A DNA stretch of 47,852 nucleotides from Candidatus Rokuibacteriota bacterium (GTDB taxonomy: Bacteria; Methylomirabilota; Methylomirabilia; Rokubacteriales; CSP1-6). Within the stretch, counting starts at the first letter, position 1. Each line of letters starts with the position of its first letter. Where the stretch lies: contig QHSI01000110.1 of the NCBI GenBank assembly GCA_003221515.1, positions 1 through 47,852 of the forward strand. Direction: 5' to 3'. Made by a program: the position numbers and the translations under genes. Below the pieces are notes generated by a model. It made no database searches and was not told where the DNA came from. It was given only the letters and a program-made list of their open reading frames with translations. Below are positions 40,430 to 44,560 of this stretch, one piece after another.

Positions 40430-41572
40430 ATGCGCACTTACAACCGGATCTCGGCGGACTGTCATCTCGACCTGATCTGGCTGCCGCCGGACCTTTTCGT
40501 GTCCGAGGCGCCCCAGGGGCTGAAGGAGCGTATGCCCTACGTGGCCGACGGCCCGGACGGAAAGCGGTGGGTCGCCAACAACGGCGCCGTCTTCGGCATC
40601 GCCGGCGGGGTCGGCGCATCCGGCACGAAGTATCAGCCGGGCAAGCAGCTCCGGGTCGACGTGATGGCCTCGACCGGGCTCTACGAGGACGGCAAGAAGG
40701 GCATCCGCCGGCCGGGCGATCCGCACCTGCGCGTCAAGGAGATGGACCGCGACGGCGTCGACGCCGAGGTGATTTACGGAATCCTGGCCGCCGCGGCGAA
40801 GCTGAAGGACATCGAGGCGTCCAACGAGATGCTGCGCATCTACAACACGTGGATGGCCGACTTCTGCCGCCAGTATCCCGACCGCCACATTGGGCTCGCG
40901 AACCTGCCGTACGGTGACATCGACGCCGCCGTCGCCGAGGTACATCGCGCCGCCAAGCTCGGCTTCAAGGGCCTCGAGCTGTCGTGCTCGTGGGACATGG
41001 AGCCGATGTGGCATCCGCAGTGGGAGCCACTGTGGGCGGCCATCAACGAGGTCGGAATCCCGCTGCACTTCCACACGTTCCCCTCGGTGTCGCCGGCGCT
41101 GCGGGAGAAGTACACCGGCCTCACCCAGCGCGCGCTGCAGTACAGCGGCCTCTGCCTGTTCCAGATGACGCTCGCCAACATCCTCACCGCGCTGATGGGC
41201 CGCGCGGTCTTCGAGCGCTATCCGAATCTGAAGATCGGGTTCGGCGAGAGCGGCATCGGCTGGATCCCCTACGTGCTCGACCGCATGGACTTCGAGTTCG
41301 AGGACCAGTATCACGACCTCCCGCTCAAGCTGAAGCCGAGCGAGTACTGGCGCCGTCAGTGCAAGGCGACCTTCCAGTACGACCGGGTCGGCACCAAGCT
41401 GATCGACGAGATGGGCGTCGAGACGCTGATGTGGGGCTCGGACTACCCGCATCCGGACGGGGTGTGGCCGGAGTCCGCCAAGTACATCTCCGAGCAGTTC
41501 AAGCATCTTCCGGATGACGTGACGCGGAAGATGACCTGCGAGAACGCCGGCAAGTTCTACGGCCTGATTTGA
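40430..41572 (+). CDS. amidohydrolase 2 family protein (ACMSD-like), paralogue 2
   Basis: 380 residues, identical in length to the protein at 10362 and alignable end to end without visible gaps. GAGGGAGGAA precedes the ATG. It starts MRTYNRISADCHLDLIWLPPDLF. The conserved segments are CHLD (again Asp in place of the second His), IPLHFHTFPS, FGESGIGWIPYVLDRMDFEFED, and GSDYPHPDGVWPES near the end. A decarboxylase or hydrolase role on an aromatic or ring-cleavage acid is likely by family. Differences from paralogue 1 cluster at residues 18-30 and 50-70 and in the helix after PSVSPALREK, suggesting altered specificity. Confidence 0.92.
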   Translation: MRTYNRISADCHLDLIWLPPDLFVSEAPQGLKERMPYVADGPDGKRWVANNGAVFGIAGGVGASGTKYQPGKQLRVDVMASTGLYEDGKKGIRRPGDPHLRVKEMDRDGVDAEVIYGILAAAAKLKDIEASNEMLRIYNTWMADFCRQYPDRHIGLANLPYGDIDAAVAEVHRAAKLGFKGLELSCSWDMEPMWHPQWEPLWAAINEVGIPLHFHTFPSVSPALREKYTGLTQRALQYSGLCLFQMTLANILTALMGRAVFERYPNLKIGFGESGIGWIPYVLDRMDFEFEDQYHDLPLKLKPSEYWRRQCKATFQYDRVGTKLIDEMGVETLMWGSDYPHPDGVWPESAKYISEQFKHLPDDVTRKMTCENAGKFYGLI

Positions 41573-41606
41573 TCTAGATGCCTGGAGGGTCTCGACGGCC
41601 CTTCAG

Positions 41607-41679
41607 AGCCGGGCGACTAGGTAGCGCCCGGCTGGCAGGAGTTTCGCGAGCGCCCCGGCGCAGCCCCGGCCGGGGCGCT
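41607..41679 (+). terminator. two hairpins after the second amidohydrolase gene
   Basis: Hairpin 1 is AGCCGGGCG (41607-41615) with CGCCCGGCT (41625-41633). Hairpin 2 is AGCGCCCCGGC (41649-41659) with GCCGGGGCGCT (41669-41679). The second stem shares AGCGCCCCGG with the terminator at 11535-11563 that follows the paralogous gene. T tracts are weak. From 41680 to 41737 no gene is seen, only a GTTAGAC core-like site at 41700. Confidence 0.6.
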
Positions 41680-41737
41680 GGTGCGTGTTGTGGCCTACGG
41701 TTAGACTTTCCGGCAGCCGTGCCCAATCGAGCCGCCC

Positions 41738-41887
41738 ATGCCGCGGATCGGCGTCGTCATTCTCGCCCTCTGGATGGCTCGCGCGGGCAGACCATGTCGT
41801 CGAGAAATGAGCAAGCGGGGTGGCGGCTCGAGCACTAACTTCAGCTTGCAGCGGCCGGCACCTCGCGTTGCTCGGCGCCGCCGCTGA
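41738..41887 (+). CDS. possible 49-residue open frame ending inside an attC-like site
   Basis: It opens with ATG at 41738 (MPRIGVVILALWMARAG) and stops at TGA 41885-41887 within the attC-like palindrome at 41833. The N-terminal 16 residues are hydrophobic, and the C-terminus is basic (ending VARRRR). There is no convincing ribosome-binding site and no recognisable domain. In integron cassettes, genes often run into their attC, so the position is suggestive, but coding is unproven. The 41573-41918 gap otherwise holds only hairpins and the attC-like element. Confidence 0.25.
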   Translation: MPRIGVVILALWMARAGRPCRREMSKRGGGSSTNFSLQRPAPRVARRRR

Positions 41888-41900
41888 AGCTGGCGTAGAC
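41833..41900 (+). other. integron attC-like recombination site 1 (degenerate)
   Basis: The 5' half CACTAAC-TTCAGCTTGCAGCGGC and the 3' half GCCGCCGCTGAAGCTG-GCGTAGAC are imperfect inverted repeats of the attC type. The arms CAGCTTGCAGCGGC and GCCGCTGAAGCTG pair fully except for a single unpaired G in CTTGCAG, which is the hallmark extrahelical base of attC L'' boxes. The outer R' box reads GTAGAC, as if GTTAGAC (GTTRRRY) had lost one T. The loop is about a dozen bases. The methyltransferase frame begins 4-19 bases after it, as cassette genes do. Confidence 0.6.
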
Positions 41901-41918
41901 GGCATGGAGTCGCCTTGG

Positions 41919-42506
41919 ATGAACGATCACGAAATCACGGACGTTCCGTCCACACTGGATACGATCCGTCAGGAAACCGAACGGGTCGGCTTCACGCTCG
42001 GGTCTGAACCCAAGACCGGCGCACTGCTCCGCGCACTTGCGGCGTCGAAGCCGGGCGGTCAGTTTCTCGAACTGGGTACCGGGACGGGCGTGGGAACGGC
42101 GTGGCTACTTTCCGGTATGGATGCTGGCTCTCACCTCGTCTCGATCGATAGCGACGCCAAGGTATCGGATATCGCGAGGCGGAATCTTGGGCACGACCCG
42201 CGAGTCACGTTTCATCTCGGGGACGGCGGCGAGTTCCTTAGAAAGGCAACGCCGCAGCAGTTCGACTTCATCTATGCGGACGCCTGGCCGGGCAAATTCA
42301 GCCATTTGGACGGGGCACTGTCCCTTCTCAAAATCGGCGGGATCTATTTCATCGATGATCTCCTGCCGCAGCCAAGTTGGCCTGAGGGGCACGCAACGAA
42401 GGTCCCAGTTCTGATCGCGGACTTGGAACGCCGCCGAGGTTTTGTCGCAACGAAGTTGGCGTGGGCATCAGGGCTGATGATATTGGTGAGAACGAGGGCC
42501 GTCTAA
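41919..42506 (+). CDS. class I SAM-dependent O-methyltransferase-like protein
   Basis: 195 residues from the ATG at 41919 (MNDHEITDVPSTLDTIRQETERVGF), with GGAG nine bases upstream; an ATG at 41904 would add five residues. The SAM-binding fold shows motif I GGQFLELGTGTGVGTAWLLSGMD, motif II acid HLVSIDSDAKVSDIARRNLG, and FDFIYADAWPGKFSHLDGALSLLKIGGIYFIDDLLPQPSW, resembling catechol-type O-methyltransferases. It is AT-richer than neighbours in codon use (AAA, TTT and TAT are seen). The stop codon lies inside the attC-like site that follows, as in integron cassettes. The acceptor substrate is unknown. Confidence 0.87.
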   Translation: MNDHEITDVPSTLDTIRQETERVGFTLGSEPKTGALLRALAASKPGGQFLELGTGTGVGTAWLLSGMDAGSHLVSIDSDAKVSDIARRNLGHDPRVTFHLGDGGEFLRKATPQQFDFIYADAWPGKFSHLDGALSLLKIGGIYFIDDLLPQPSWPEGHATKVPVLIADLERRRGFVATKLAWASGLMILVRTRAV

Positions 42507-42595
42507 CAGCGGCTGCACCCGACGGCGACCGCCCGACGATCGACTTGATTTGAATCCAACGTTCGCGGCCGCCGCGGGTTATCGGGGCGTTCGGC
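42501..42595 (+). other. integron attC-like recombination site 2 (degenerate 3' half)
   Basis: The R'' box GTCTAAC (42501-42507) fits RYYYAAC exactly and contains the methyltransferase stop codon. It is followed by AGCGGCTGCACCCGACGGCG, a common attC 5' layout. On the other side GGCCGCCGCGGG (from 42568) pairs with CCCGACGGCGACC, with one unpaired A. The R' box is GTTCGGC (42589-42595), one base off GTTRRRY. The spacer between R and L boxes pairs poorly, so the 3' half is decayed. The size of 95 bp is within the attC range. Confidence 0.5.
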
Positions 42596-42622
42596 AGCAG
42601 CCATAAGGGGGCTTGGCCGACC

Positions 42623-42955
42623 ATGCGAGCGAACATGAAGATCGACATCGACAAGCTCACCGAGGCGGAACTCATCGACCTGAACAATCGGGTTGTCGAG
42701 CGCCTGAGGTTCTTGAACCAGATGCGCGCGCACGGCGAAATGCTCCAGTTCAAGATCGGAGATCGAGTCTCCTTTCAACCAGAAGGCCATCCGGTCGTGG
42801 TTGGCATGCTGACCCGCTACAACCGGAAGACCGTTACCGTCGTCACGGACATCGGGCAGCGTTGGAATGTCGTGCCGAGGCTTTTGCGGCAAGCAGACGG
42901 CTCGAACGCAGCAGAAGGCCTCGCGCCCAACGTGATTCAGCTTCGTAAGAAGTGA
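42623..42955 (+). CDS. small conserved protein with a KOW/SH3-like core, cassette-borne
   Basis: 110 residues from the ATG at 42623, or 106 from 42635. An N-terminal helix (MKIDIDKLTEAELIDLNNRVVERLRFLNQM) is followed by a small beta barrel: FKIGDRVSFQPEGHPVVVGMLTRYNRKTVTVVTDIGQRWNVVPRLLRQ, which resembles nucleic-acid-binding SH3/KOW strands. The C-terminal tail is polar. I have no named family for it. Codon use is closer to the AT-richer methyltransferase and enolase genes than to the rest of the window. It sits between an attC-like site and a GTTGGGT core at 42968, consistent with being a mobile cassette. Confidence 0.75.
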   Translation: MRANMKIDIDKLTEAELIDLNNRVVERLRFLNQMRAHGEMLQFKIGDRVSFQPEGHPVVVGMLTRYNRKTVTVVTDIGQRWNVVPRLLRQADGSNAAEGLAPNVIQLRKK

Positions 42956-42974
42956 TCTACCGCGAGCGTTGGGT
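42925..42974 (+). other. weak attC-like site 3 (R-box pair only)
   Basis: GCCCAAC (42925-42931) fits RYYYAAC and GTTGGGT (42968-42974) fits GTTRRRY, and six of seven bases are complementary. The inner L boxes do not pair convincingly. The left box lies inside the coding region of the preceding gene, and 50 bp is short for attC. It could be chance; it is listed because it falls where a third cassette boundary would be. Confidence 0.25.
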
Positions 42975-43048
42975 GCGAAGCCACACGTCGCCGACGCGCA
43001 CGCAGCCGTGATACGGCAAGGTTCGCCGTCACCGGACGGAGGTAATTT

Positions 43049-44143
43049 ATGACGCGAGTCCAGCTGACGCTAAAGAGCGTTCGAGCGCGGCCTGTGGTCG
43101 TGCCCTTGAAGAGGCCGGTCGTCTCGAAAGTTGGCCTGTTTCAAGACTGGCCTCTGATTCTGATTGACCTCTACACCAACGAAGGGGTTGTGGGGCACAG
43201 CTACCTCGAGCCTTATCTCAAGCAATCCGCGCGGTACATCGTTCCCGCTATCGAAGACCTCGCCGAAGCAGCAAAAGGCCAACCGGTGGCGCCGTTCGAC
43301 AGTTATCGCCGAGGGATCGGCTCGCTGCATCTCATCGGCCGTGAAGGAGTGTCCCTGATAGCGGTATCGGGCCTCGATATGGCGGCATGGGATGCTTTGG
43401 CCAAAGCCGCCGACATGCCGCTCGCCGTGTTCCTCGGGGGGACGACCGGTCCGGTCCCCGCCTACAACAGTAACGGGCTATGGTTGACGCCGGTGGACAA
43501 GCTGGCTGCTGAGGCGGCGGCGCTCATGGCTGAAGGAGGGTTCACCGGCCTAAAGCTCAGACTGGGAAGAGAAACGCTAACCGACGATCTGGCGGCTATT
43601 GCCGCCGTGCGGGAGGCGGTTGGCGCCACAGTGAAGCTCATGTGTGACTTCAACCAAGGCTTGTCGCTGGGTGACGCGCTCGTGCGATGCCACGCTCTCG
43701 ACGACCAAGGGCTCTATTGGTTTGAGGAACCCACTATCTACGACAATATTCCGGGCTACGCTCAGCTGGCGAGTGAGCTGAAGACTCCGGTTCAGCTCGG
43801 GGAGAACTTCTACGGCGCGCGCCTACTGTATCAAGCAGTGCTCGCTGGCGCGGGCGACTATGTCATGCCCGACCTCATGCGCATTGGCGGTGTCAGCGGG
43901 TGGCTGCGTGCGGCAGCGATCACGAGCGCCGCGGGCATTCCAATGTCCACGCATCTCTACCCAGAGATGGCTGCGCATCTCCTGCGCGTCACCGATACAG
44001 CGCACTGGCTTGAGTGGCAAGATTGGGCTGACCCGATACTGTCCGAGCCCTTCCAAATCAAGGACGGTTATCTCATGGTTCCTGACAAACCTGGCCAAGG
44101 CATCGAGTGGGACGAGAAGGCGGTCGCAAAGTTCAGATTATGA
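43049..44143 (+). CDS. mandelate racemase/muconate lactonizing enzyme family (enolase superfamily)
   Basis: 364 residues; a GGACGGAGG site precedes the ATG. The capping domain starts TLKSVRARPVVVPLKRPVVSKVGLF. Barrel residues are Lys in TGLKLRLG (the second Lys of the KxK pair is Arg), Asp in LMCDFNQG, Glu in YWFEEPT, Glu in QLGENF, Asp in VMPDLMRIGG, and the mandelate-racemase-type His in MSTHLYPE, with a later Glu in HWLEWQDW. The metal site is complete, so it should be active on an acid with an acidic alpha proton: racemase, dehydratase or cycloisomerase. It is visibly lower in GC than the surrounding genes and follows the cassette-like units, suggesting acquisition by transfer. Confidence 0.92.
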   Translation: MTRVQLTLKSVRARPVVVPLKRPVVSKVGLFQDWPLILIDLYTNEGVVGHSYLEPYLKQSARYIVPAIEDLAEAAKGQPVAPFDSYRRGIGSLHLIGREGVSLIAVSGLDMAAWDALAKAADMPLAVFLGGTTGPVPAYNSNGLWLTPVDKLAAEAAALMAEGGFTGLKLRLGRETLTDDLAAIAAVREAVGATVKLMCDFNQGLSLGDALVRCHALDDQGLYWFEEPTIYDNIPGYAQLASELKTPVQLGENFYGARLLYQAVLAGAGDYVMPDLMRIGGVSGWLRAAAITSAAGIPMSTHLYPEMAAHLLRVTDTAHWLEWQDWADPILSEPFQIKDGYLMVPDKPGQGIEWDEKAVAKFRL

Positions 44144-44185
44144 GCCGGTCGTTCCGTGGACATCTCCTAGGAGGACGCAGTCGGC

Positions 44186-44560
44186 TCAGGCGCTAGGCAG
44201 CAGGCCCGCACGGTAGCTGCGTCGCAGCGTGTCGAGCTTCAGCGGCACCGGCGTGCCGAGCCACATCGCGTAGATGCTGTGGTCGTCGACCGAGTCGTCG
44301 GACAGCGGATGGACCAGCACGTCGAGACCGTCGCGGTGGAACATCAGCCACTCGACGACGGGCTGAAACTGGTCGGGCTTGAAGATGACCTGAGCGTTGG
44401 CGACCGGATGCGGCCCGATTGGCTCGTCGCGAAAGCCGCCGAACTCGACCTGGAACTTCTCGCCGATGACGGCGCACACGCGTTCGGCGGCCGGACGCGT
44501 CTTCTGCGGATCGTAGTAGATGTGCGCGTGATAGCCTCGGTTCGGGATGGTGTCGGTCAT
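44186..44560 (-). CDS. DOPA 4,5-dioxygenase family protein
   Basis: 124 residues, the expected length of the bacterial family, with a GAGGAGGA site upstream. Conserved blocks are RGYHAHIYYDPQKTRPAAERV (His pair near residue 11), GPHPVANAQVIFKPDQF, and HRDGLDVLVHPLSDDSVDDHSIYAMWLG with several histidines that can bind Fe(II). In fungi and plants the family opens DOPA to betalamic or stizolobic precursors; in bacteria it acts on catechols or is of unknown role. It is the last gene in the minus-strand hydroxylase operon, 35 bases after the CoxG-like gene, suggesting a hydroxylation then ring-opening order. Confidence 0.9.
   Translation of the reverse strand: MTDTIPNRGYHAHIYYDPQKTRPAAERVCAVIGEKFQVEFGGFRDEPIGPHPVANAQVIFKPDQFQPVVEWLMFHRDGLDVLVHPLSDDSVDDHSIYAMWLGTPVPLKLDTLRRSYRAGLLPSA

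Follow-up and report, generated by a model that had tools for sequence, protein, structure and literature searches.

We analysed a stretch of 47,852 nucleotides (the window), which is contig QHSI01000110.1 of a Candidatus Rokuibacteriota bacterium (GenBank assembly GCA_003221515.1). Between two groups of chromosomal genes it holds three genes on the plus strand, interspersed with attC sites or with what is left of them, and preceded by a leader-like element and a gene remnant. The features, from left to right, are the following.

41647 to 41719, plus strand: terminator-like palindrome and promoter/leader-like element (GGTGCG..GTGGCCTACGGTTAGACTTTCCGGCAGCC), recurring upstream of various genes in the related genomes G053, G048, G055 and G046
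41738 to 41810, plus strand: out-of-frame remnant of a gene for an ABC-transporter substrate-binding protein, a decayed first unit, with start and end fused
41833 to 41900, plus strand: attC site 1, with R'' box CACTAAC, an extrahelical base and R' box GTAGAC
41919 to 42506, plus strand: cassette gene 1, SAM-dependent O-methyltransferase-like (Methyltransf_24 in Pfam), 195 aa, with its stop inside site 2
42501 to 42595, plus strand: attC site 2, with R'' box GTCTAAC and R' box GTTCGGC
42623 to 42955, plus strand: cassette gene 2, 106-110 aa, no assigned function
42956 to 42974, plus strand: attC site 3 remnant, reduced to its 3' end, where the R' box GTTGGGT (42968-42974) survives
43049 to 44143, plus strand: cassette gene 3, enolase-superfamily enzyme (MR_MLE in Pfam), 364 aa
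44144 to 44185, no strand: right-hand junction, beyond which synteny with G049 and G048 returns at the end of a DOPA-dioxygenase-like gene (44186-44560, minus strand)

On the left, the genes for an LLM oxidoreductase, an NTF2-like protein, an epimerase and an amidohydrolase keep their order in the related genomes G049, G048 and G051; on the right, those for the DOPA-dioxygenase-like protein, CoxG and the CO-dehydrogenase subunits do the same, but the DOPA gene is missing in G051. The locus is empty in G049, where 148 bp separate the flanking gene groups, and the array is likewise absent from G051. G048 carries one unrelated small gene between the flanks, and a second copy of that gene was not found in the relatives' loci examined. 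Given the conservation of the flanking order in relatives, the window contig is no chimera and the array is an insertion. The GC content of the three inserted genes is 58-60% versus 69% for the window overall, in agreement with the lower GC described for them in the first-pass annotation, which had been made from the letters alone.

That annotation had placed attC sites at 41833-41900 and 42501-42595 and had proposed a covariance-model search as a check. To assemble training sites, intI genes were located across the phylum, and the sequences flanking them, together with those flanking homologues of the window, were searched with a box-and-stem finder, which returned 63 attC sites versus 2 on reversed sequence. 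The model was trained on 49 attC sites from relatives, with the window sites and the homologues of site 1 left out; 92% of the cells in the alignment of these sites are paired, and its covariation score is 0.472, compared with 0.130 after shuffling and no more than 0.081 after sliding the partners. Run after calibration over both strands of the 47.9-kb window with filters off, the model matched both sites to the base, site 1 at 43.5 bits (E 9.6e-9) and site 2 at 31.9 bits (E 7.7e-6), the latter score being partly non-independent in that the 49 training sites include the attC of the methyltransferase homologue. The third-best match anywhere in the window reached 14.5 bits, and the syntenic regions of relatives, about 130 kb in all, gave at most 18.1 bits; the phylum-specific model thus supports both of the proposed sites.

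The details of the two sites agree with the earlier description as well. One extrahelical base is present in site 1, whose R' box, GTAGAC, lacks one T relative to GTTAGAC, and in site 2 the RYYYAAC box, GTCTAAC, holds the TAA stop codon of the methyltransferase gene. GTTCGGC, the R' box of site 2, is common in this phylum; the inner stem of site 2 is retained and its outer stem eroded, outer pairing is weak, and the score lies well under that of typical sites. Taken as a whole and as judged by the covariance model, both sites have the architecture by which attC is defined, an R'' box RYYYAAC and an R' box GTTRRRY around a hairpin with an extrahelical base, with single boxes deviating from it. 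Because both are eroded, a box-pair finder that expects near-exact R boxes did not detect site 1 and placed site 2 under its working threshold, and an Rfam scan of the window matched no family.

Genomes without an intI gene over the cut-off, picked as negative controls, turned out to hold attC-like sites too, and the background was therefore judged on the window and on its syntenic relatives. Among such genomes, G025, G031 and G008, which belong to other families of the same class and have no full-length intI, many model matches of 30-48 bits are scattered over the chromosome, about 9 of them in the single-contig genome G025. These could be dispersed single sites or an effect of composition.

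One way to dispense with an integron altogether would be to regard the insert as ordinary horizontally acquired genes accompanied by chance hairpins. GTTRRRY boxes do occur in the window at chance level (34 seen versus 32.4 expected), plain folding of site 1 does not stand out from that of shuffled sequences (z -1.2), and homologues of gene 2 are also found outside attC arrays, on plasmids and close to transposases. The scores of both sites against the 14.5-bit background speak against chance, as does the coincidence of the unit boundaries with cores, and what refutes this explanation is that each of the three genes stands beside attC in other genomes. We consider it very improbable.

When positions 41000-44150 were searched in relatives, they resolved into a mosaic of matches in which the boundaries between units fall at cores. 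The methyltransferase gene, gene 2 and the enolase-superfamily gene each occur alone beside attC in other Rokubacteria, never together, as expected of gene cassettes, in which a single gene and its attC move independently. Across 95 genomes of the phylum the methyltransferase is present in 5 and gene 2 in 6, and the window is the only contig with both. The comparison with relatives for the presence or absence of single units, which had been suggested on first inspection, accordingly came out in favour of cassettes: units are found singly, and a fixed order of the three genes without attC was not found among the relatives. Site 1 itself has homologues twice in G083 (97% and 91% identity), on contig C87 of the same genome as the window (90%) and in G050.

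The methyltransferase has a homologue in G039:C21, where about ten attC sites make up the array around it; there, as in the window, the stop codon of the gene falls within the R'' box GTCTAAC. Gene 2 is 92% identical at the DNA level to a cassette in G054:C230 with attC on both sides, and it also lies beside attC in G090:C44. Searches with gene 2 against Pfam and NCBIfam gave no match, and its AlphaFold2 model combines a long N-terminal helix with an SH3/Tudor-like barrel. The gene 2 family (L129-L155) is conserved, about 106 aa in length, and occurs across many phyla, with members on rhizobial plasmids too; homologues sometimes adjoin IS66, IS256, IS5 or IS21 genes. The enolase-superfamily gene is part of an intact cassette in G039:C34, with attC before and after it; in the window its own attC is absent, and the array extends to the end of the gene at 44143.

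The junction between genes 2 and 3 records a further loss. Homology to the G054 cassette ends at 42962 and homology to the enolase cassette of G039 (88%) begins at 42963, and this meeting point adjoins the GTTGGGT at 42968. The core noted there on first inspection is hence a true cassette junction, with an attC deleted to its last bases. An intact third attC at 42925-42974 was considered and ruled out, both by the model score (9.1 bits) and by the deletion seen in comparison with G054, which has a full attC after gene 2. The model recognises neither site 3 nor the last attC. The cassette proteins are constrained, because dN/dS against relatives is 0.31 for gene 2, 0.15 for the methyltransferase and 0.06-0.10 for the enolase-superfamily enzyme, values that may cover mostly the time before insertion.

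A different picture emerges at the left edge, where a GTTRRRY core had also been proposed. The GTTAGAC at 41700 falls within a leader/promoter-like element of about 70 bp, the version of which in relatives usually reads GGCTAGACT; it is no cassette core, and both attC and attI were ruled out for it, as the element precedes various genes in relatives. Two copies of the 41647-41719 element occur in the genome of the window itself, one of them on contig C146 (22783-22810). Leaders of about 50-70 bp (GGTGCGNNTNGTGGCCTTCGGCTAGACTCCCCGGCAGC), often following a GCGCCCCGG..CCGGGGCGC palindrome and directly 5' of start codons, recur in the genus and the family (L071, L074, L075, L076, L077). A scan of 41560-42000 for the sigma-70 consensus gave no match, so the reading of the element as a promoter derives from its recurrence before genes.

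Downstream of the leader lies what the first-pass annotation had taken as the first of three consecutive short frames on the same strand. This first frame is no gene and is instead the ABC remnant, which starts at 41738 and ends with LARADHVVEK* at 41810 in a different frame, most of the gene being missing. Its 3' end and site 1 match G050:C45, where an intact ABC substrate-binding gene forms a cassette in an array of about 20 attC sites, on a contig that also carries an intI fragment. Its start and 5' leader match a resident-type gene of G053:C266 that lies beside the same amidohydrolase gene.

No integron integrase accompanies these units. A profile search with TIGR02249 gave no match on the 47.9-kb contig, and no integrase fragment was found on it; in the 95%-complete genome as a whole the same profile gave seven weak matches, none over the cut-off and none on the window contig, and the ORFs behind the best of these resemble Xer/phage-type tyrosine recombinases. 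The array had been called integrase-less before any such search, and the search bears this out. Integrons are common in Rokubacteria: intI over the cut-off is present in 32 of the 95 phylum genomes and in 6 of 8 congeners. In the textbook layout of an integron, intI is oriented opposite to the cassettes. Rokubacterial integrons depart from this, as attC sites lie 3' of intI and on the same strand in all 19 loci with attC nearby (L008, L011-L015, L017, L018, L020-L025, L027, L029-L032), and in this they resemble those of Treponema, in which integrases pointing the same way as the cassettes are known. A GTTRRRY box about 190-245 nt past the end of intI in 10 of 18 loci is a candidate attI. The window locus differs from these same-direction integrons in having no intI.

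All of these observations lead us to regard the stretch from about 41738 to 44185, with a probability of about 0.93, as a decayed, integrase-less cassette cluster inserted between two conserved chromosomal gene groups. The first-pass annotation had reached much the same reading of a decayed or integrase-less array, and it is sustained by the two model-supported sites, the lack of intI, the presence or absence of units one by one and the decay at all three sites. Each unit originally consisted of one gene and an attC 3' of it. The substrate of integron integrases is the bottom strand of attC in its folded form, and an integrase acting in trans could have folded this strand into a hairpin, recombined it at the GTTRRRY core and so added or removed single units. 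The units were probably put down away from attI, or joined through the cassette-borne ABC substrate-binding gene. Erosion then took one base from the core of site 1, the outer stem of site 2, and all or nearly all of site 3 and the last attC. The cassette genes are still open and conserved, and the promoter-like element upstream may drive their expression. The damaged cores suggest low or no recombination activity, and excision of the window units today is doubtful.

How the cluster came to lack an integrase could be explained in a few ways, off-target insertion, loss of intI and rearrangement all having been proposed as origins of clusters of attC sites lacking an integrase, or CALINs (PMC8618304). 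First, the array could be the remnant of a complete local integron, with an intI once just upstream of site 1 and deleted later. CALINs are recognised to arise in this way (PMC8618304), congeners carry intI accompanied by arrays, and the ABC remnant does show a deletion. Against this, the terminator, the leader and the ABC remnant occupy the 260 bp that separate site 1 from the amidohydrolase gene, and they match DNA of relatives without intI at that place, whereas in every one of the 19 phylum loci intI stands immediately 5' of the array on the same strand, and the window contig bears no fragment of it. Local loss is improbable on these grounds, and off-site insertion or joining through the ABC gene would be more likely.

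Second, homologous recombination could have joined the cluster to the chromosome with no integrase involved, the partners being an ABC substrate-binding gene already resident there, as in G053, and a copy borne by a cassette, as in G050. The split origin of the remnant, resident-type at its 5' leader and start and cassette-type at its 3' end and site 1, speaks for this route. However, the halves meet out of frame and most of the gene is missing, which makes the event indistinguishable from an insertion followed by a deletion, and the right-hand junction is uninformative on this route. Joining of this kind is rather unlikely, though more plausible than the loss of a local intI.

The decayed cluster belongs to a known kind of element, the CALIN. 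As in CALINs defined by IntegronFinder (PMC9024848), which have two or more attC sites within 4 kb, units of a single gene that all point the same way, and no intI nearby, the window has two attC sites on the same strand with 600 bp between them (less than 4 kb) and no integron integrase in the vicinity. As in the CALINs of Xanthomonas (PMC12444791), it is sited away from any intI. It is unlike a typical CALIN in that only two sites are recognisable, both eroded, and two further sites have been deleted. With sedentary chromosomal integrons it shares the kind of attC and cassettes, as seen in G050, but the locus has neither intI nor attI; a complete integron, with intI adjoining attI and array, is not what lies here, there being no intI on the contig. 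Cassettes of CALINs can be mobilised in trans (PMC12444791; PMC9668308).

The lineage had been called little described for such arrays, and Candidatus Rokuibacteriota is indeed not among the phyla that a 2021 review names as integron carriers (PMC8618304). In the literature searched we found no more than passing mention of Rokubacteria or Methylomirabilota with integrons, which larger surveys may cover. Tentatively, Rokubacteria and related families of the class may possess a phylum-wide, previously unlisted integron system in which the integrase points towards attI and the cassettes, cassettes are regularly scattered to places without attI, and cassettes in soil Rokubacteria normally end up in small dispersed CALINs such as the one described here. 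The locus itself is an ordinary eroded example, and its interest lies in the host phylum and the phylum-wide layout. An uncultured soil phylum is added to the hosts of integron cassettes, and the empty locus and the fused remnant show cassettes turning into ordinary chromosomal genes as the sites at which they recombine erode. With the phylum-specific attC model and the consistently same-direction integrase, soil metagenomes can be searched for this pool of cassette genes.

Contig C177 of the same genome holds a second, larger integrase-less array near its start (L156, 1-5200). An intI may be cut off at that contig start or sit in the unassembled 5%; because the genome is 95% complete and the C177 array begins near a contig end, the term integrase-less applies to the locus and possibly not to the cell. 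The C177 array has four good attC sites on the plus strand (at 1200, 2462, 3112 and 3439) and two on the minus strand (4469 and 5062), and its cassettes include a RelE/Phd-like toxin-antitoxin pair and a serine-hydrolase-like gene.
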